DNA of 64,000 nucleotides from Rubritepida flocculans DSM 14296 (GTDB lineage: Bacteria; Pseudomonadota; Alphaproteobacteria; Acetobacterales; Acetobacteraceae), in NCBI RefSeq assembly GCF_000425365.1, contig NZ_AUDH01000002.1:248001-312000 (forward strand). Reading direction: 5' to 3'. Both the position numbers and the translations under genes were made by a program. The notes under the pieces are model-generated. The model did not search any database and was not told the DNA's origin. It worked only from the letters and a program-made list of their open reading frames with translations. Shown one piece after another: positions 1,727 to 25,072 of this stretch (position 1 is the first letter of the stretch; every line of letters begins with the position of its first letter).

Positions 1727-2779
1727 CTACTCCGCCCGGTAGGCGAGGCGGAAGCCGCCCCAATGCCGCCCGCGCACCAGGATGGGGGCCGAGCAGTCCT
1801 TCATCAGCGCCACCTGCCCGCCGCCCATGTCCCGGCGGTAGGCCTGGAGCAGGAAGGGCTTGCGGTTGCGCGCCGCGCCGAGGCCGGTGCGGTCGTCGAA
1901 GATGCGGCGGTTGCGGCAGTTCGCCGTGTTCCAGGCCGTCTCGCCCGGGCGCTGGGGCTGGCTGAACTTCGCGTTGTGCGTGGGCAGATAGCCGTTGCGG
2001 TCCACCGCGGCGGCGAAGACCACGCGCGGGTCGAGGCCGAGCAGGGGCTCCTGCACCGGCGGCAGCAGCCGGTCGGTCAGCGCCGTGAAGCCGGCGAGAA
2101 GCTGGGGCGGGTCGGTCCCGGGGAGGGGGCGATAGGCCTCGTCGAACAGGGCGGCCTCGGTGATGTCGCCGGCGGCGAGGGCGGCCTCGAACAGGCGGCC
2201 GACCTCGGCGGCCGCGGCCTGCGCGGCGCGGATGAAGGGGGAGTCCTCGGTCTCGACGCCGGCGGCGGCCATCTCCTCCATCAGCGCCTCGGAGATGTCG
2301 CGCAGGGTCTCGCCGCGCTGGGCGGCTTGGGTCACCTCCTGCGCAAGGGCGGCGGTGACCTGCGCCTGGGCGGCGATGCCGGTGCGCATGGCGGCGGCCT
2401 CCGCCCCCGCCGCGGCCGCGCCGCCGGCCATGGCGGCCACCTCCTCGCCGGCGCGCTGCACGCTCTCGGCCAGGGCGGCGAGAGCGGCGGCGGCCTCGGC
2501 GCCCGTGGCCTCCTCGCGCGCGGCGGAGAGCGCGGCCTCGGCCCGGCTGGCGCTGCCGGCCATGGCGGCGGCCCCCTCCGCCACCCGGGCCGCGGCGGCG
2601 TCGAGCCGGCCGGCCTCCTCGGCCGCGGCGGCGAGGCCCTGGCGCAGCGCGGCGAGGGAACCGGCGATGTCCGCCACCTGGACGGACACGGCGCCGAGCC
2701 GCCCCGCGACGCGCGCGAAGCCGGCGGCGGAGGCCTGGGAGTCGGCAAGATCGAAGGGAGCCATGCCGCCCCATGGCAT
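1727..2779 (-). CDS. Methyl-accepting-chemotaxis-like protein lacking the signalling hairpin
   Basis: A 350-residue, Ala-rich protein without membrane segments. Residues 15-200 are heptad-like coiled coil. The last ~100 residues (FSQPQ, WNTANCRNRRIF, AARNRKPFLLQ, YRRDMGGG, GRHWGGFRLAY) match the conserved C-terminal domain I recall from soluble alphaproteobacterial MCPs. The highly conserved tip that binds CheA and CheW (LLALNAAIEAARAGE type) is not recognisable. It may therefore be a receptor-derived sensor that no longer signals through CheA. ATG at 2779 is preferred over ATG 2764 because GGGAAAGG sits 8 bases upstream. It is divergent from the RpiR regulator gene. Confidence 0.65.
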   Translation of the reverse strand: MPWGGMAPFDLADSQASAAGFARVAGRLGAVSVQVADIAGSLAALRQGLAAAAEEAGRLDAAAARVAEGAAAMAGSASRAEAALSAAREEATGAEAAAALAALAESVQRAGEEVAAMAGGAAAAGAEAAAMRTGIAAQAQVTAALAQEVTQAAQRGETLRDISEALMEEMAAAGVETEDSPFIRAAQAAAAEVGRLFEAALAAGDITEAALFDEAYRPLPGTDPPQLLAGFTALTDRLLPPVQEPLLGLDPRVVFAAAVDRNGYLPTHNAKFSQPQRPGETAWNTANCRNRRIFDDRTGLGAARNRKPFLLQAYRRDMGGGQVALMKDCSAPILVRGRHWGGFRLAYRAE

Positions 2780-2834
2780 GGCCGGCCTTTCCCGGCGGTT
2801 AAGTCCATGTCATTCATGCGGATGAGCGATTGTT

Positions 2835-2861
2835 CACTACGATATTCACCATGATGTAGTG
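2835..2861. promoter_or_regulatory. Inverted repeat CACTAC-N15-GTAGTG between divergent genes
   Basis: CACTAC (2835-2840) and GTAGTG (2856-2861) are perfect inverted arms, 29 bases before the RpiR regulator start, in a locally AT-richer spacer. The same stretch holds two near-direct repeats, TTCACTACGAT and TTCACCATGAT, spaced 12 bases apart, so binding on one DNA face is also possible. Autoregulation by the adjacent RpiR protein is inference only. Confidence 0.35.
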
Positions 2862-2889
2862 CACGCTTCCCGCCTCCGCAGGGTTCCCC

Positions 2890-3831
2890 ATGCCGCACCC
2901 CCTCTCCGTCGCCGATCTCCCCGCCCCCGCCGATCCCTTCGGCGCGCGCCTCGCCGCCGCCCTGCCGGGCCTGTCGCCCGCCGCGCGGCGCGTGGCCCGC
3001 TTCCTGCACGAGAACCGCGCCCTCGCCCTGGCGCTGAGCGCCATGGAACTGGCCGCGCGGACCGGCACCTCCGATGCGACGGTGGTGCGCACCGTCCAGG
3101 CGCTGGGCTTCGCCGGGCTGCCCGAGCTCCGGCGCGCCCTGGCCGAGGCGCTGGCCGCCCCCCCGCCCGATCCGGGCGAGGCGATGCGCCGCACCCTGGC
3201 CGAGGCCGGCGAGGACGCGGCCCGGGCGATGGACATGGTGCTCGAGACCCAGCGCGAGGCGCTGGAGGCGCTGGCCCGGCCGGAGGCCCGCGCCACGCTC
3301 CGCGCCGCCGTCGCCGCGCTGCACCCGGCGCGGCGCATCCTCGTCTTCGGCCTCGGCCCCTCGGCCGCGCTGGCGCGCCTGCTCGCGCTGCTGCTCGGCC
3401 GGGCGGGGCGTGCCGCCCGTGCGCTGGACGCGAGCGGCCTCGCCCTCGCCGACCAGATGCTCGATCTCGCGCCCGGCGACGCGCTGCTGGTGCTTGCCTA
3501 TGGCCGCGCCTACCGCGAGGTGGCGGCGCTCTTCGCCGAGGCGCGCCGCCTTGCGCTGCCGCTGGTGCTGGTGACCGACAGCCTGGACCGCTCCCTCGCC
3601 CGGCACGCCGATGTGGTGGTGCCCGCGCGGCGCGGACGCGCCCGCCGCGTGGCCCTGCACGGCGCGACGCTGGTGGCGCTGGAGGCCATCGCGCTCGGCC
3701 TCGCCGCCATGGACGGCCCGCGCGCCCTGGCCGCCCTCGACCGGCTGAACGACCTGCGTGCCGCCATCGCGGGGGGCGCTCGGATGTCGGCTGACCCCCG
3801 AACGCCCCGCCCCAGGAGAGACCGGGCATGA
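2890..3831 (+). CDS. MurR/RpiR-family transcriptional regulator
   Basis: A 313-residue regulator. Residues 1-80 form the RpiR helix-turn-helix (FLHENRALALALSAMELAARTG, then SDATVVRTVQALGFAGLPEL). Residues 115-260 form a SIS sugar-phosphate-binding domain (ARRILVFGLGPSAALA, then ALLVLAYGR). Family members usually sense a phosphosugar. The stop overlaps the start of the next membrane protein gene (ATGA at 3828-3831), so the two are probably co-translated. The C-terminal ~25 residues are low-complexity and basic. The effector and target are unknown. Confidence 0.88.
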   Translation: MPHPLSVADLPAPADPFGARLAAALPGLSPAARRVARFLHENRALALALSAMELAARTGTSDATVVRTVQALGFAGLPELRRALAEALAAPPPDPGEAMRRTLAEAGEDAARAMDMVLETQREALEALARPEARATLRAAVAALHPARRILVFGLGPSAALARLLALLLGRAGRAARALDASGLALADQMLDLAPGDALLVLAYGRAYREVAALFAEARRLALPLVLVTDSLDRSLARHADVVVPARRGRARRVALHGATLVALEAIALGLAAMDGPRALAALDRLNDLRAAIAGGARMSADPRTPRPRRDRA

Positions 3832-18512: not shown

Positions 18513-19208
18513 ATGCCCTCTGAGGGTTTCCTCTCCCGCTGGTCGCGCCGCAAGCAGGCCTTCGCGCGCGGCGAGGGGCCGGCCGAGCCCGCGCCCGAGC
18601 CGCCGCCCGCGGCCGCCCCCGGCCTCGTTCCGCCGCCCGAACCGGCCGCGCCGCCTCCCGCCCCGGCGGTCGAGGCCGCCGCGCCCGCGGAGGCCGAGCC
18701 AGAGTTCGACCTGTCCAGCCTGCCGGACATCGAGACCATCACGGCCGCCACCGACATCCGCGTCTTCTTCCACAAGGCGGTGCCCGAGGCGCTGCGCCAG
18801 GCGGCGCTGCGCAAGGCCTGGGCGACGGACCCGGTGATCAGCACCTATATGGGCCCGCTGGACTATGCCTGGGACTTCAACACGCCGGGGGGCCTGCCCT
18901 ACGGCTTCGCCTCCGAACTGGGCGAGGTGGGGGAGAAGCTGCGCGAGCTGATCGCTCAGGCGATCGGCGAACCGCCGGCCCGGCCCGATTCCGAGGCCGA
19001 GGCCGAGCCCGGATCGCCCCCCGCGGCGCTGGCGGAGGCCGCCGATGCCCCTCCGGCCGATGAGGCCGCCCCGCTCGAGGCGCCCCCTTCGCCGCTGCGT
19101 CTCGCGCAGGACGCCCCGGCGGAGGATTCGCCGCCCTCTCCCGCCCCCGAGGCGCCCGCCGAACCCCCTCCGCCGCGGCGGCGGCATGGCGGGGCCCTGC
19201 CGGTGTGA
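18513..19208 (+). CDS. DUF3306 domain protein
   Basis: A 231-residue protein. The N-terminal FLSRWSRRKQAF and central SSLPDIETITAATDIRVFFHKAVPE, ALRKAWATDP and YMGPLDYAWDFN are DUF3306 hallmarks. The flanking regions (25-62 and 155-225) are Pro/Ala/Glu-rich and probably disordered. The ATG at 18513 lies directly after the tandem repeat, and AAAAATG gives only a weak ribosome binding site, so the repeat may influence its translation. Its role is unknown; the family is tied to formate dehydrogenase operons. Confidence 0.82.
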   Translation: MPSEGFLSRWSRRKQAFARGEGPAEPAPEPPPAAAPGLVPPPEPAAPPPAPAVEAAAPAEAEPEFDLSSLPDIETITAATDIRVFFHKAVPEALRQAALRKAWATDPVISTYMGPLDYAWDFNTPGGLPYGFASELGEVGEKLRELIAQAIGEPPARPDSEAEAEPGSPPAALAEAADAPPADEAAPLEAPPSPLRLAQDAPAEDSPPSPAPEAPAEPPPPRRRHGGALPV

Positions 19209-19232: not shown

Positions 19233-19316
19233 TGCAATCGCCTCGCAATTGCACTATCTGAAAAACCTGACATCCTTTCGCCATCCCCGGTTGACGCGGG
19301 TGCAGTTTCTTTGCAC
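19233..19316. promoter_or_regulatory. TGCA half-site array upstream of the chaperone-regulator gene
   Basis: In the 119-base spacer, two inverted repeats are visible: TGCAAT-N9-ATTGCA (19233-19253) and GTGCA-N7-TGCAC (19300-19316). Three of the four half-sites read TTGCA. TTGACG at 19291-19296 could be a -35 box, but the -10 is poor. The spacer is much more AT-rich than its surroundings. It probably holds the promoter for the fdh structural genes; control by the encoded HTH protein is a guess. Confidence 0.4.
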
Positions 19317-19327
19317 GCTCCGCGGCA

Positions 19328-20107
19328 ATGAAGCAGGAAGCGCATGCTGGGGCGCTGGACGCCGCGATCGCCGCGGCCGGGGGGATGGAAGCCTTCCAGG
19401 CCGCGCTGGGCGTTGCGCGCCGCACCGTCTTCCTCTGGAAGCAGCAGGGCGTTCCGGCAGAGCGCGTGCCGGAGATCGAGGCCGCCACCGGCGTGCCCCG
19501 CCACAAGCTGCGCCCCGACCTCTGGGCCCCGCCGGGCGCCATCGCCGACCCGATGCGCGAGGGCCGGGCCAACCTCTATGCGCTGCTCGGCCATCTGCTG
19601 AGCGATGTGCCGGCGCCCGCGGTGCTCGCGCGCCTCGCCGCCCTGCCCGCCGACGACACGCCTCTCGGCGCCGCGCTGGGCGCGCTCTCGGCCGCCGCCC
19701 GGGTGGCGAGGCCGGAGGCCCTGGAGCGCGAGTATCACGCCTTGTTCATCGGGCTGGGCCGCGGAGAGCTGCTGCCCTTCGCCTCCTACTATCTCACGGG
19801 CTTCCTGCACGAGCGGCCGCTGGCGGAGCTGCGCGCCGATCTCGGCCGGCTGGGCATCGTCCGCGCCGAGGGCGTCTATGAGCCCGAGGACCACATCGCC
19901 TTCCTCTGCGAGACCATGGCCGGGCTGCTGCGCGGCGGGACGCCGGAGGAGGCGGACGCGCTGTTCGCGCGGCATATCCGCCCCTGGGCGGGTCGTTTCT
20001 TCGCCGACCTGTGCGTGGCCGAGAACGCGGTGTTCTACCGCGCCGTCGGCGGGCTGGGTCGGGCTCTGATGGATGTGGAACTGGCGGCGGCGGAGCTGCC
20101 CGCCTGA
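19328..20107 (+). CDS. TorD-family chaperone fused to a YdaS-like helix-turn-helix domain
   Basis: A 259-residue protein in two parts. Residues 8-66 (ALGVARRTVFLWKQQGVPAE, then RVPEIEAATGVPRHKLRPDLW) match the YdaS/Cro-type helix-turn-helix, whose usual ending is RHELRPDIY. Residues 77-250 are a TorD/DmsD redox-enzyme chaperone: EYHALFIGLGRGELLPFASYY (135-155 region) and EPEDHIAFLCETMAGLL (185-201). TorD proteins bind the Tat signal of a molybdoenzyme and help insert the cofactor before export; the client here is presumably FdhA. The frame is continuous, so the fusion is not a simple frameshift artefact. There is no clear ribosome binding site before the ATG; leaderless translation is possible. 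Confidence 0.85.
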   Translation: MKQEAHAGALDAAIAAAGGMEAFQAALGVARRTVFLWKQQGVPAERVPEIEAATGVPRHKLRPDLWAPPGAIADPMREGRANLYALLGHLLSDVPAPAVLARLAALPADDTPLGAALGALSAAARVARPEALEREYHALFIGLGRGELLPFASYYLTGFLHERPLAELRADLGRLGIVRAEGVYEPEDHIAFLCETMAGLLRGGTPEEADALFARHIRPWAGRFFADLCVAENAVFYRAVGGLGRALMDVELAAAELPA

Positions 20108-20139: not shown

Positions 20140-20373
20140 ATGGCGAGCAATGACGACAAGGGCGCGAGCAAGCGCCGCGGCTTCCTGAAGACGCTGGGCA
20201 TCGGCACCGCCGCGGCCGCCGCCGCGGCCTCGCCCGCGCTGGCGCAGCGCGCCGACAGCGTGCCCGCCCGCGAGGCGCGCAAGGAGAACGCCCAGCAGCG
20301 CGTGGCGGCCCGCTACCAGGCGAACTCCGCGCATGTGCAGAACTTCTACCGCACCAACCGCTACGAGTACTGA
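20140..20373 (+). CDS. Small Tat-signal protein of formate dehydrogenase region
   Basis: A 77-residue protein: a twin-arginine signal (SKRRGFLKTLGIGTAAAAAA, then SPALAQ) followed by only about 40 mature residues ending YRTNRYEY. This matches the small 'formate dehydrogenase region TAT target' family that precedes fdh catalytic genes. It is presumably exported folded and may associate with the enzyme. A strong ribosome binding site, GGAAGGAG, lies 6 bases before the ATG. It begins 32 bases after the TorD-type gene and 23 bases before fdhA. Confidence 0.85.
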   Translation: MASNDDKGASKRRGFLKTLGIGTAAAAAAASPALAQRADSVPAREARKENAQQRVAARYQANSAHVQNFYRTNRYEY

Positions 20374-20396: not shown

Positions 20397-23342
20397 ATGC
20401 TCATCAAGCGTTCCGACGGGGCCCGCGCCAAGCAGCGGCTCGCTTCGGCCTATCAGGGCCTCTCCGCCGGCGGCATGGACCGCCGCTCCTTCCTCAAGAC
20501 CGCGGGGCTCGCGGGCGCCGGCGTGGCCGCGCTGGCGGGCATCGCGCCGCGCATGGCCGAGGCCGCGGGCGCCGCGACCGGCGTGCATGACCTCTCGCGC
20601 CCCATCCAGCGGGTGAAGAATCTCTGCACCCACTGCTCGGTGGGCTGCACGGTCACGGCCGAGGTGCAGAACGGCGTCTGGGTGGGCCAGGAGCCGACCT
20701 GGGAGAGCCCGATCAACCGCGGCACGCACTGCGCCAAGGGCGCCTCGGTGCGCGAGCTGGTGCATGGCGACCGCCGGCTGAAGTACCCGATGAAGCTGGT
20801 GAACGGCCAGTGGCAGCGCATCACCTGGGATGTGGCGATGAGCGAGATCGCCGACCGGATGATGGCGATCCGCGCCGCCTCCGGCCCTGACTCCGTGTAC
20901 TGGCTGGGCAGCGCCAAGTTCTCCAACGAGGGCGCCTATCTGTTCCGCAAGTTCGTGGCCTTCTGGGGCACGAACCACGTGGACCACCAGGCGCGCATCT
21001 GCCACTCGACGACGGTGGCGGGTGTGGCGAACACCTGGGGCTATGGCGCGCAGACCAACAGCTACAACGACATCCGCAACTCCAAGACCATGATCATCAT
21101 GGGCGGGAACCCTGCAGAGGCGCATCCGGTCTCGCTGCAGCACGTGCTCTCCGGCAAGGAGATCAACCGTGCGAACATGATCGTGATCGACCCGCGCTAC
21201 ACCCGCACGGCCGCCCACGCCACGGAATATGTGCGCATCCGCCCGGGCACGGACATCCCGGTGATCTGGGGCATCCTCTGGCACATCTTCGAGAATGGCT
21301 GGGAGGACAAGGAGTTCATTCGCCAGCGCGTCTACGGCATGGACGAAATCCGCGCCGAGGTCGCGAAGTGGAACCCGCAGGAGGTGGAGCGCGTGACCGG
21401 CGTGCCGGGCGCGCAGCTCCGCCGGGTGGCGGAGATGTTCGCCACGCAGAAGCCCTCCACGCTGATCTGGTGCATGGGCACCACGCAGAAGACGGTGGGC
21501 ACGGCGAATGTGCGCGCCTACTCGGTGCTGCTGCTGGCCACCGGCAATGTCGGGGCGGAGGGCACAGGGGCCAACATCTTCCGCGGCCACTGCAACGTGC
21601 AGGGCGCCTCGGATTTCGGCCTCGATGTGGGCACGCTGCCGGCCTATTACGGGCTGGACGAGACGGCGTGGCGGCACTGGAGCCGCGTCTGGGGCGTCTC
21701 CTTCGAGTCCATGCGCGCGCGCTTCGACACGCCGCAGATGATGAACACGCCCGGCATCCCCTCCACGCGCTACATGGATGCCGTGCTGCTGCCCAAGGAC
21801 CAGGTGCAGCAGCGTGACAACCTCAAGGGCATGATCGTGTTCGGCCACGGCGGCAACACCGTGACCCGCATGCCCGAGGCGCAGCGGGCCCTCGATGCGC
21901 TGGACCTGCTGGTGGTCGCGGACCCGCACCCCACCACCTTCGCGGTGCTGCACAACCGGCGCGAGAACACCTATCTGCTGCCCATCGCCACGCAGTTCGA
22001 GTGCTCGGGCAGCCGCACCAGCTCCAACCGCTCGGTGCAGTGGGGCGAGAAGATCGTGAACCCGATCTTCGAGAGCCGCACCGACTACCGCGTGATGTTC
22101 GACCTGGCCAAGGCGCTCGACGCCGCGGCGCAGCGCCGGAACATGACCATCCGCTTCGCGGAGGACATGTTCAAGCACTACGACATCCAGAACGGCGAGC
22201 CGACGCCCGAGAGCATCCTGCGCGAGATCAACCGCGGCGCCTGGGGCACCGGCTATAGCGGCATCAGCCCCGAGCGGCTGAAGCTGCACATGCAGCACCA
22301 GGACAAGTTCGACCTGGTGACGCTGCGCGCCAAGCCGGACGCCCCGGCGGAAATCCGCGGCGACTACTACGGCCTGCCCTGGCCCTGCTGGGGCACGCCG
22401 GAGCAGCGCCACCCCGGCAGCCACATCCTCTACAACACCAACCTCGCGGTGAAGGATGGCGGCGGCACCTTCCGCCCGCGCTTCGGTCTGGAGCGCAACG
22501 GCGTGACGCTGCTGGCCGAGGGCAGCTACTCGAAGGACAGCGACATCCGCGACGGCTACCCCGAGTTCACGGTGGCGCTGCTCAAGCGGCTCGGCTGGTA
22601 TGACGAGCTCACGGCGGCCGAGAAGGCGACCATCGCCGAGATCGGCCAGGGCCTGGGCGGCGAGGACCGCGTCTCCTGGATGACGGACCTCTCGGGCGGC
22701 ATCCAGCGCGTGGCCATCGCGCATGGCTGCTCGCCCTTCGGCAACGGCAAGGCCCGCGCGGTGGCGTGGAACCTGCCCGACCCGGTGCCCGTGCATCGCG
22801 AGCCGATCTACACGGCCCGCCCGGACCTGATCGCCCAGTACCCGACCCTGCCGGACCGGCGCGGCTTCCGCCTGCCGCATCTCGGCCAGTCGGTGCAGGC
22901 GCGCAGCCCCGAGGTGTTCCGCAACTTCCCGATCATTCTCACCTCCGGCCGACTGGTGGAGTACGAGGGCGGCGGCGAGGAGACGCGCTCGAACAAGTGG
23001 CTGGCCGAGCTGCAGCAGGACATGTTCGTGGAGATCAACCCGGCCGACGCCGCGGCGCGCAACATCCGCGACGGCGCCTGGGTGTGGGTCACCGGCCCGG
23101 AGAACAACAGCCGCGCCCGCGTGAAGGCGCTGGTGACGGAGCGCGTGGGGCCGGGTGTGGCCTTCATGCCCTTCCACTTCGCCGGCTGGTTCATGGGCGA
23201 GGACCAGCGCCGCAAGTATCCGCAGGGGACGGACCCCGTGGTGCTCGGCGAATCGGTCAACGCCATCACCACCTACGGCTATGACCCCGTCACCTTCATG
23301 CAGGAGACGAAGGTCACGCTCTGCCAGATCCGTGCCGCCTAA
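20397..23342 (+). CDS. fdhA: Formate dehydrogenase, catalytic alpha subunit (molybdopterin)
   Basis: A 981-residue molybdopterin bis-MGD oxidoreductase. A Tat signal (RRSFLKTAG at 29-37) directs export. A 4Fe-4S site is formed by C77/C80/C84/C112. The molybdenum ligand is Cys202, followed by His203, in HQARICHSTTVAG; the codon at 21000-21002 is TGC, so this is a cysteine-type, not a selenocysteine, enzyme. Further MGD-binding signatures are MGGNPAEAHPV and MIVFGHGGNTVTRMP. It oxidises formate to CO2 in the periplasm and hands electrons to the beta subunit encoded 15 bases downstream. GAGAGGAAGA serves as ribosome binding site. Confidence 0.95.
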   Translation: MLIKRSDGARAKQRLASAYQGLSAGGMDRRSFLKTAGLAGAGVAALAGIAPRMAEAAGAATGVHDLSRPIQRVKNLCTHCSVGCTVTAEVQNGVWVGQEPTWESPINRGTHCAKGASVRELVHGDRRLKYPMKLVNGQWQRITWDVAMSEIADRMMAIRAASGPDSVYWLGSAKFSNEGAYLFRKFVAFWGTNHVDHQARICHSTTVAGVANTWGYGAQTNSYNDIRNSKTMIIMGGNPAEAHPVSLQHVLSGKEINRANMIVIDPRYTRTAAHATEYVRIRPGTDIPVIWGILWHIFENGWEDKEFIRQRVYGMDEIRAEVAKWNPQEVERVTGVPGAQLRRVAEMFATQKPSTLIWCMGTTQKTVGTANVRAYSVLLLATGNVGAEGTGANIFRGHCNVQGASDFGLDVGTLPAYYGLDETAWRHWSRVWGVSFESMRARFDTPQMMNTPGIPSTRYMDAVLLPKDQVQQRDNLKGMIVFGHGGNTVTRMPEAQRALDALDLLVVADPHPTTFAVLHNRRENTYLLPIATQFECSGSRTSSNRSVQWGEKIVNPIFESRTDYRVMFDLAKALDAAAQRRNMTIRFAEDMFKHYDIQNGEPTPESILREINRGAWGTGYSGISPERLKLHMQHQDKFDLVTLRAKPDAPAEIRGDYYGLPWPCWGTPEQRHPGSHILYNTNLAVKDGGGTFRPRFGLERNGVTLLAEGSYSKDSDIRDGYPEFTVALLKRLGWYDELTAAEKATIAEIGQGLGGEDRVSWMTDLSGGIQRVAIAHGCSPFGNGKARAVAWNLPDPVPVHREPIYTARPDLIAQYPTLPDRRGFRLPHLGQSVQARSPEVFRNFPIILTSGRLVEYEGGGEETRSNKWLAELQQDMFVEINPADAAARNIRDGAWVWVTGPENNSRARVKALVTERVGPGVAFMPFHFAGWFMGEDQRRKYPQGTDPVVLGESVNAITTYGYDPVTFMQETKVTLCQIRAA

Positions 23343-23357
23343 GGGAGAACCAGCAAC

Positions 23358-23954
23358 ATGGCCCGCATGAAGTTCCTCTGCGACGCGGACCGCTGCATCG
23401 AGTGCAACGCCTGCGTCACCGCCTGCAAGAACGAGCACGAGGTGCCCTGGGGCATCAACCGGCGCCGCGTCGTCACCATCAATGACGGCCGGCCCGGCGA
23501 GCGCTCGATCTCCATGGCCTGCATGCACTGCACGGACGCGCCCTGCGCGGCCGTCTGCCCCGTGTCCTGCTTCTACACGACGGCGGATGCCATCGTGCTG
23601 CACGACAAGGATCTGTGCATCGGCTGCGGCTACTGCTTCTACGCCTGCCCCTTCGGCGCGCCGCAATATCCGCGCGTCGGCAACTTCGGCGGGCGCGGGA
23701 AGATGGACAAGTGCACCTACTGCGCGGGCGGCCCGCAGCAGGACAACACCCTGGTCGAGTACACGCAGTACGGCGCGAACCGCATCGCCGAGGGCAAGCT
23801 GCCGCTCTGCGCCGAGATGTGCTCGACCAAGGCGCTGCTCGCCGGCGATGGCGAGATGATCGCGACCATCTACCGCGAGCGCGTGCAGCGGCGCGGCTAT
23901 GGCTCGGGCGCCTGGGGCTGGCGCACGGCCTATCGCACCACGGTCAACGCCTGA
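23358..23954 (+). CDS. fdh3B: Formate dehydrogenase FDH3-type beta subunit (Fe-S)
   Basis: A 198-residue ferredoxin-like subunit with four cysteine groups: CDADRCIECNACVTACK, CMHCTDAPCAAVCP, CIGCGYCFYACP and CTYC...CAEMCSTKAL. It should carry four 4Fe-4S clusters and pass electrons from the molybdenum subunit to the membrane cytochrome. It has no signal peptide of its own and probably rides out with the alpha subunit. It lies between fdhA and two strong RNA hairpins that precede the gamma gene. Confidence 0.95.
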   Translation: MARMKFLCDADRCIECNACVTACKNEHEVPWGINRRRVVTINDGRPGERSISMACMHCTDAPCAAVCPVSCFYTTADAIVLHDKDLCIGCGYCFYACPFGAPQYPRVGNFGGRGKMDKCTYCAGGPQQDNTLVEYTQYGANRIAEGKLPLCAEMCSTKALLAGDGEMIATIYRERVQRRGYGSGAWGWRTAYRTTVNA

Positions 23955-24070: not shown

Positions 24071-25072
24071 ATGCGGCGCATCCTTCTCGCACCCTTCATG
24101 GTGCTGTTCCTGGCGCTGGCCGCGCCCGGCCTGATCGGCGGCGCCCTCGCGCAGCCCGCGGCCGGCGCGCGCGGCGCCATCTCGGCCGAGGAGCTCGAGC
24201 TCCAGCGCATGCTGCAGGGCGGGCGCATCGAGGGCCGCACCACCCTGCCCGACGCGCAGTCCGAGGTGCTGATCCAGCCGGCCGGCAAGGCCTGGCGGGA
24301 CTTCCACAACGTCACGCTGGCCTGGGTGGGCGGCATCGCGGTGGGCGGCATGCTGCTCATCCTCATCGCCTTCTACCTCGGGCGCGGGAAGATCATGGTG
24401 GAGGGTGGCCTTTCGGGCCGGACCATCCAGCGCTTCAACCTGCTCGAGCGCGCCAACCACTGGATGGTGGCCACCTGCTTCATCATCCTGGGGCTGACGG
24501 GGCTGAACCTCACCTTCGGCCGCCACCTGCTTCTGCCGATCGTCGGGCCCGAGGCCTTCACCGCCATCTCGCTCTACGGGAAGATCCTGCACAACTTCCT
24601 GGCCTTCCCCTTCACGCTCGGCATCGTGCTGATGCTGCTGCTCTGGGTGAAGGACAACATCCCGAACGGCCGCGACATCGAGTGGTTCAAGCAGGGCGGC
24701 GGGCTGATCGGGAAGGGCCATCCCAAGGCCGGGCGCTTCAACGCCGGGCAGAAGATGGTGTTCTGGATCACCACGCTGGGCGGCGCGGCGGTCGCTGTCT
24801 CCGGCTATCTGCTGATCTTCCCCTTCTGGGGCGAGTTCGGCGTGGCCGAGATGCAGCTCGCGCACATCGTGCACTCCATCATCTCGGTGCTGATGATCGC
24901 GGCGATGCTGGCGCACATCTACATCGGCTCCATCGGCATGCAGGGCGCCTTCGACGCCATGGGCACCGGCCAGGTGGACCTGAACTGGGCCAAGGAGCAC
25001 CACAGCCTCTGGGTCGAGGAGCAGCAGAAGCGCGAGGCCGCCGCCCCGCGCGGCGCCCAGCCCGCGGAGTGA
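24071..25072 (+). CDS. Formate dehydrogenase gamma subunit (cytochrome b)
   Basis: A 333-residue protein: an N-terminal Sec signal (to about residue 28, ALAQ), a periplasmic stretch to about 75, then a four-helix cytochrome b561-type domain. Haem-ligand candidates are His in ERANHWMV, LYGKILHNFLAF and LAHIVHSIISV, plus LAHIYIGSIG. It anchors the FDH complex and transfers electrons to quinone. GGAGGAAG precedes the ATG at 24071. A 116-base spacer with two hairpins separates it from the beta gene, in contrast to the tight packing elsewhere in the island. Confidence 0.92.
   Translation: MRRILLAPFMVLFLALAAPGLIGGALAQPAAGARGAISAEELELQRMLQGGRIEGRTTLPDAQSEVLIQPAGKAWRDFHNVTLAWVGGIAVGGMLLILIAFYLGRGKIMVEGGLSGRTIQRFNLLERANHWMVATCFIILGLTGLNLTFGRHLLLPIVGPEAFTAISLYGKILHNFLAFPFTLGIVLMLLLWVKDNIPNGRDIEWFKQGGGLIGKGHPKAGRFNAGQKMVFWITTLGGAAVAVSGYLLIFPFWGEFGVAEMQLAHIVHSIISVLMIAAMLAHIYIGSIGMQGAFDAMGTGQVDLNWAKEHHSLWVEEQQKREAAAPRGAQPAE

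Follow-up and report, generated by a model that had tools for sequence, protein, structure and literature searches.

Does the gene that lies ahead of the formate dehydrogenase genes in the 64-kb stretch of DNA analysed here (the window) encode a chaperone only, or does the helix-turn-helix (HTH) at its N-terminus make the same protein a regulator of its own operon? From the evidence presented below we consider it likely that the protein is a formate-dehydrogenase-linked chaperone of the TorD/DmsD type that also serves as a Cro-type, dimer-binding regulator of its own torD-tat-fdhABC operon. A sequence-only reading of the window had described a YdaS/Cro-type HTH joined in frame to a TorD-type chaperone. 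This description was borne out, with both Pfam domains found above their curated cut-offs within one protein, and the profile search of residues 1-70 on their own that it had proposed returned PF15943 with an E-value of 6.8e-14. The gene and its two domains are located as follows:

19328..20107, + strand: HTH-TorD fusion gene, an intact reading frame of 259 amino acids with its ATG at 19328 and its stop codon at 20105-20107
19349..19525, + strand: Cro/YdaS helix-turn-helix domain, residues 8-66 (Pfam, PDB sequence search, AlphaFold2, Foldseek)
19550..20095, + strand: TorD/DmsD-type chaperone domain, residues 75-256 (Pfam for residues 108-226, AlphaFold2, Foldseek)

In the complete fusion protein the Pfam family PF02613 (TorD/NarJ delta) matches residues 108-226 with 104.5 bits against a gathering cut-off of 22.2 (E 6.1e-30), and PF15943 (Cro-like 'YdaS') matches residues 10-67 with 48 bits against a cut-off of 30 (E 1.1e-12); the only other Pfam hit is a weak one to P22_Cro. 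A phmmer search against PDB sequences identified DmsD (1.8e-7), the Cro protein 3bd1 (3.3e-5, residues 8-69) and the Cro hybrid XPH1 (5.6e-4), and residues 9-69 match the phage transcriptional repressor family phrog_35 of PHROGs. Matches to the NCBIfam equivalogs stay below cut-off, with 42 bits against 162 for DmsD and 35.1 against 132 for TorD, as does a match to the carph-isopro model; the window chaperone is a member of the wider TorD/DmsD/NarJ (REMP) family and is filed as neither TorD nor DmsD proper. The segment E-P-x-D-H is a conserved mark of TorD/DmsD/NarJ chaperones, and in 35 fused sequences E187, D188 and H189 are invariant and E185 and P186 nearly so. Note that PF15943 carries the toxin name YdaS in Pfam; the neighbours of the window fusion gene are fdh genes, and we see no reason for calling the fusion protein a toxin.

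Both folds are present in an AlphaFold2 model calculated from an alignment of 35 fused sequences (mean pLDDT 89.4, pTM 0.74), with helices at residues 2-16, 20-27, 31-40 and 44-54 that are followed by the TorD helices from residue 75. Helix 3 (residues 31-40, RRTVFLWKQQ) is taken here to be the recognition helix, by the convention of the Cro fold. The top Foldseek matches of the model are YcdY (9m26) and DmsD (3efp, 3cw0, 1s9u), representing the all-helical TorD/DmsD fold with E-values from 8.5e-6 to 7.5e-5. Cro 3bd1 ranked below these, with an E-value of only 0.25-0.34 for a short matched part, and superimposes on the N-terminal ~60 residues with an rmsd of 1.1-1.3 Å, a TM-score by target of 0.80-0.84 and a probability of 1.00. 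The fusion is no sequencing accident, because full-length fused homologues are present in many genera and dN/dS is far below 1 in both parts, the HTH showing the lower values (medians of 0.124 for the HTH versus 0.226 for TorD in the window's clade, and of 0.109 versus 0.154 in Bradyrhizobium).

The genes around the fusion are the following:

18513..19208, + strand: DUF3306 gene (Pfam), preceding torD with a 119-bp gap
20140..20373, + strand: gene for a small TAT-signal protein between torD and fdhA, TIGR02811-like but below the model cut-off
20397..23342, + strand: fdhA, formate dehydrogenase alpha subunit and presumed client, with an RRSFLK Tat-like signal (TIGR01591 with 455.5 bits, equivalog cut-off 666; synteny)
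23358..23954, + strand: fdhB, iron-sulphur subunit, named by synteny
24071..25072, + strand: fdhC, gamma/cytochrome b subunit (TIGR01583, above cut-off)

The same gene order is annotated on a Bradyrhizobium plasmid, where torD is fused as well; that gene is annotated as 'molecular chaperone TorD family protein' and nothing more, an example of how an HTH fusion can be hidden by annotation.

Fused homologues were found in the window's genus, in other Acetobacterales and in Hyphomicrobiales. When 100 relatives were searched with the fusion protein, 37 gave a match, 16 of them fused over their full length or nearly so, 11 with TorD lacking the HTH, 9 with the HTH part only and one (G002) with a fusion truncated at the end of its contig. 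Within the window's genus the fused gene is present in 13 of 21 genomes, its own included, and an unfused one in none. Among the matches listed for named genomes, the best 80 loci comprise 72 fused ones, including one cut at a contig end (L050), a frequency biased by ranking according to likeness to the fused query. The fairer survey is an even draw of 385 alphaproteobacterial genomes, of which 57 match at E 1e-8. Here 10 are fused (G000, G084, G093, G181, G187, G216, G248, G262, G354 and G420) and 45 apparently hold TorD alone, as called from the N-terminus where the locus was fetched and otherwise from the aligned range; of the other two, G285 (residues 13-248) stands outside both counts and G075 matches mainly by its HTH.

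The sequence-only reading had proposed a survey of how often the domains are fused and whether always beside fdh genes, and had itself raised the objection that the N-terminal segment could be a general helix of TorD. The fusion extends over many genera and fdhA follows within 1.5 kb in 80/80 fused loci for which over 1 kb of DNA beyond the gene was available (of 86 overall), while the objection fails, 19 relatives being without a recognisable HTH. The fusion thus shows the linkage to a Tat-dependent molybdoenzyme that marks TorD/DmsD/NarJ chaperones. As fdhA is also found downstream of unfused torD, in 16/17 cases with enough sequence, we take the HTH-TorD fusion for a regularly occurring variant that a minority of fdh chaperones show. 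Some related arrangements were observed along the way. In L070, an Elioraea metagenome-assembled genome, the stretch before an unfused torD resembles a degraded HTH, which may represent decay or an assembly error. L029 (G075:C86:35816-36031, minus strand) has a YdaS-type HTH in frame with another enzyme-like part, presumably an NAD(P)HX epimerase/dehydratase, and is possibly a second HTH-enzyme fusion or the result of a misplaced start. Related YdaS-type HTH genes away from torD are found at L115:2220-2645 and in L030, with a C-terminal part that we take to resemble a CcdA-type antitoxin; torD is unfused in the genome of L115 (G048).

A candidate target of the HTH is located directly before the gene:

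19291..19296, + strand: TTGACG, a -35-like hexamer, with the operator in the 17-bp spacer that follows
19300..19316, no strand assigned: putative operator GTGCAGTTTCTTTGCAC (GTGCA-N7-TGCAC), the class-specific dyad, ending 11 bp before the ATG at 19328
19314..19319, + strand: putative -10 element CACGCT, a weak match overlapped by the right arm of the operator

Counted within the window only, TGCA-N7-TGCA shows no significant excess, with 1 copy found versus 0.81 expected. The 10-base form GTGCA-N7-TGCAC occurs twice in the 3.83-Mb genome, the second copy inside an amidohydrolase-like reading frame, and 1-5 times in each of seven other genomes of the genus (0-1 for a reversed-pattern control), in G020 at the torD site alone; the window protein looks like a dedicated autoregulator. 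As the -10 element is weak, a strict consensus scan did not find a promoter before torD in the window and no terminator-like site was found in the 119-bp gap, read-through into torD from the DUF3306 side is possible. No Shine-Dalgarno sequence was seen before the window torD, and with a 17-bp spacer that would put the transcript start close to the ATG, the torD mRNA may be leaderless.

The case for the dyad comes from comparison across loci. For a first count, L031 and L032 (duplicates) and L050 were left out from 108 TorD loci, L111 was set apart as a class of its own, L023 was moved to the unfused group and L025, whose contig ends in the gene, was not entered. Within 260 bp upstream, ATAG-N7-CTAT was present in 58/72 loci with the canonical helix (0.06 expected) and in 0/13 loci with the RRTVF helix of the window's clade, and TGCA-N7-TGCA in 13/13 RRTVF and 0/72 canonical loci; neither was detected in the 19 unfused ones. 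A gap of 7 alone is enriched (58/72 for ATAG, 13/13 for TGCA), other gaps from 3 to 12 giving 0 or 1; a scan for ATAG-N6-CTAT found nothing, N7 being the right gap. Twelve of the 14 canonical loci without the ATAG dyad have a QPA helix, the other two being L078 and L087.

The loci were accordingly counted by recognition helix, in upstream regions of 220-260 bp, with expected values from first-order shuffles and without the further duplicates L016, L021, L119, L120, L123 and L144. A QPS or QPT helix goes with ATAG-N7-CTAT in 62/64 loci (0.10 expected), and a QPA helix with ATAA-N7-TTAT in 11/12 (0.02 expected), the twelfth, L071, having a mixed ATAG/ATAA dyad. The RRTVF helix goes with TGCA-N7-TGCA in 13/13 loci (0.06 expected; 0.14 in the 260-bp count), and the VWHW type (ANVWHW, or GHVWHW in L125) with ACAAA-N4-TTTGT in 4/4 (0.00 expected), a circular count in that the motif was read from these four. 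Each class dyad is found 0 times in the other three fused classes. Upstream of unfused torD, with distances taken from where the TorD match begins and not from the start codon, any of the four dyads occurs in 1/36 loci (L059, ATAA), and an extension to 600 bp again yielded L059 only (n=17); dyads of any sequence with 6-bp arms are present before 21/36 of these genes versus 12.7 expected from shuffles.

Loci read once the motifs were fixed show the same association. All eight later QPS loci (L117, L118, L121 and L122, which are also among the 64, and L148, L151, L152 and L156) carry the ATAG dyad, some of them coming from genera already represented, and ACAAA-N4-TTTGT is found in 6/8 new VWHW loci, of which L165, L170 and L171 closely resemble earlier ones; it is absent from L168 and L169, which are fused and near-identical. 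The QPP helix of L114 is accompanied by an ATAG dyad before torD, the sole one in 16.7 kb. L037 and L100 contain a second class-matching dyad at the beginning of the fused gene, overlapping its start codon or lying immediately next to it.

Within the canonical class the distinction narrows to a single position. Residue 33 in helix 3 (window protein numbering) separates ATAG from ATAA in 70/70 called loci, with S or T for the former and A for the latter; the corresponding table of 58/0/0/12, in which the mixed dyad of L071 is counted as ATAA, gives a Fisher value of 9e-14 that ignores relatedness. Both states occur in Bosea, where L099 has QPS with ATAG and six other loci have QPA with ATAA.

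It is conceivable, if very unlikely, that the dyad serves some other, unlinked regulator, the HTH being vestigial or a part for protein interaction. The helix-dyad match is known from sequence comparison, and dyad type mostly tracks phylogeny. In a tree of 105 TorD domains the fused and unfused states differ by 4 changes and the S and A helix states by 3, and 12/13 RRTVF sequences fall into one supported clade, the position of L033 not being firm. In the best tree of the canonical loci helix state and operator state each change 3 times, with 1 independent pair on strongly supported branches. The co-variation of S/T versus A thus is complete in the called loci yet stems from few events; the wider difference from the TGCA and ACAAA classes comes in addition. 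Exceptions to the match also exist: L059 has its dyad without an HTH, L168 and L169 an HTH without the dyad, L078 and L087 no exact dyad, and L114 its QPP helix with ATAG. However, an unlinked regulator leaves it unexplained that no class dyad precedes 35/36 unfused torD genes, that the dyads change with the recognition helix, within Bosea too, and that the HTH is under strong purifying selection. From both domains, the neighbouring genes, the class-specific dyad and the co-variation with the helix we infer dimeric binding of the window protein to its dyad and regulation of the operon. The sequence-only reading had located no DNA target, the putative operator at 19300-19316 lying outside the stretch of 19328-20107 with which it dealt; its suggestion that transcription of the fdh genes is the target of the fused domain gains support from the helix-matched dyad and from its absence in the 35/36 unfused cases.

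The position of the dyad bears on the sign of this regulation. In 13/13 RRTVF-class loci the dyad centre follows TTGAC at a distance of 15-17 bp, and because the dyad is within the promoter spacer, a regulator bound there should block polymerase. The HTH would bind the single operator GTGCA-N7-TGCAC just ahead of the torD start codon, and the bound HTH-TorD protein would keep RNA polymerase off, so that in the window's clade the regulator probably acts as a repressor. Among 66 S-class sites, however, 36 lie 7 or 15-18 bp upstream of TTGAC, 12 over the spacer or the -10 element, and 18 are without placement. Cro/CI-type activators work near such positions upstream of -35, and the spacings are about one helical turn apart, both of which would suit an activator instead of a repressor in at least some Hyphomicrobiales. 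We consider this unlikely, as the two spacings are confined to few clades, and the dyad is in the spacer in 13/13 window-class loci and over the spacer or -10 in the 12 S-class sites. Nevertheless, operator position differs between clades, so that repression may not apply to all of them, and in some the regulator may instead be an activator.

Beyond the region upstream of torD, 2 further class-matching sites were found in 849 kb of 86 fused loci. ATAG-class 10-base dyads number 0-3 per genome in six genomes, near the 0-2 of the reversed-pattern control, and a search for tandem operators in 26 genomes gave 2 matches, both at torD. A second CATAG site in G093 was rejected as an operator, as it extends into the 3' end of a mobA-like gene and does not have a promoter position. 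In G216 and G084, which belong to the same genus, two ATAG-N7-CTAT dyads each stand ~110 and ~166 bp ahead of a tupB-like permease gene, with genes for an ATPase and a TupA-like binding protein coming next, in a tupBCA-like operon ~7.5 kb beyond the fused torD (L175, about 2343-3216; L176). The TupA and TupB models match with 242 and 160 bits, both below the equivalog cut-offs. Supply of tungstate or molybdate to formate dehydrogenase would make sense of these dyads.

A survey of tupB gave 33 matches in 31/33 genomes and thereby 30 loci, L202 and L207 having no usable upstream region. Two ATAG sites each were found in the S-class loci L180 and L181 (same genus), and none in 21/23 usable S-class loci; in the RRTVF class the dyad is present in 0/2 loci upstream of tupB. 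In the VWHW class ACAAA-N4-TTTGT precedes tupB in 2/3 and then in 4/8 further loci. We rejected these VWHW dyads as operators, as the core forms part of a longer hairpin with outer arms that co-vary like those of a terminator or of another regulator's site. In the hairpins of L189, L191 and L210-L217 the outer arms vary yet remain complementary, and the core is exact in 6/10 and near in L211. Two of the dyads are from genomes (G807 and G809) whose torD loci, L169 and L168, are without one, and the genome of L210 (G808) has no HTH-TorD match and lacks the ACAAA-N4-TTTGT core.

What the TorD part contributes to regulation is the second question. By analogy with BirA or with heat-shock repressors subject to chaperone titration, an unfinished FdhA bound through its Tat signal to the TorD part could alter dimerization or DNA affinity, and expression would then track the demand for chaperone; the sensor for missing client apoenzyme or cofactor suggested by the sequence-only reading is plausible as a proposal. 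A solved structure of TorD shows a dimer, and dimer versus client could therefore constitute a simple switch, as in BirA. For its sign we favour a free chaperone that represses and a client-bound one that lets go, with a client-bound co-repressor nearly as likely. That a single chain acts as a client-sensing chaperone-repressor, whose TorD part reports FdhA awaiting cofactor and export and whose Cro part sets transcription of the operon (in one genus also of the tupBCA-like one), is a proposal that we put forward tentatively and at somewhat less than an even chance. Plain autoregulation, in which the HTH sets the operon level, the TorD part signals no client state and the fusion keeps the amounts of chaperone and enzyme in step, is a serious possibility, if still a doubtful one. 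The whole of the DNA evidence fits it without sensing, and many unfused relatives in the same context manage without an HTH. On the other hand, a separate regulator would do equally well for this purpose, and the presence of the fusion beside the client gene in 80/80 loci suggests that coupling of the two activities matters. If client sensing holds, a Tat proofreading chaperone would close a loop in which protein maturation feeds back on gene expression, and confirmation would link enzyme maturation to transcription. The operator, the class-specific sequences and the correspondence of one helix residue with one operator base open the idea to direct testing in vitro.

The established role of Tat proofreading chaperones is in assembly, and in the literature searched, with most subscription papers outside its scope, we found no report of such a chaperone doubling as a DNA-binding regulator, nor of a TorD fused to an HTH. 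A term search for HTH or fusion wording in the accessible text of a review (PMC10609526) found none. The closest described relatives are the TorDfdh/DmsDfdh chaperones, which belong to the NarJ subfamily and are encoded in fdh operons together with DUF3305/DUF3306 and a Tat-signal gene; according to the part of the 2015 study consulted, Alphaproteobacteria are included (PMC4464133). The window protein resembles them in its TorD/DmsD-type chaperone and its fdh operon setting and differs by its fused Cro-type HTH and class-specific dyad; the consulted part of that text names no HTH, DNA binding or fusion (PMC4464133). With the Cro/YdaS phage regulators (Xfaso 1 Cro 3bd1, PF15943, phrog_35) it shares the fold, the sequence family and, as predicted, a dyad target, but its HTH is encoded within a chaperone gene that neighbours fdh genes and in the window's clade has an RRTVF recognition helix. 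The biotin ligase/repressor BirA is a maturation protein fused to an HTH that autoregulates its pathway. The likeness would be one of outline, in the union of maturation protein and HTH, in autoregulation of the own pathway and in dimer or client as a possible switch, while domains and chemistry are different and Pfam finds no biotin ligase domain in the window protein. In the chaperone-coupled repressor system HspR-DnaK, chaperone and repressor are separate proteins; there as here the occupancy of a chaperone could set transcription, but in the window protein both parts belong to one chain.
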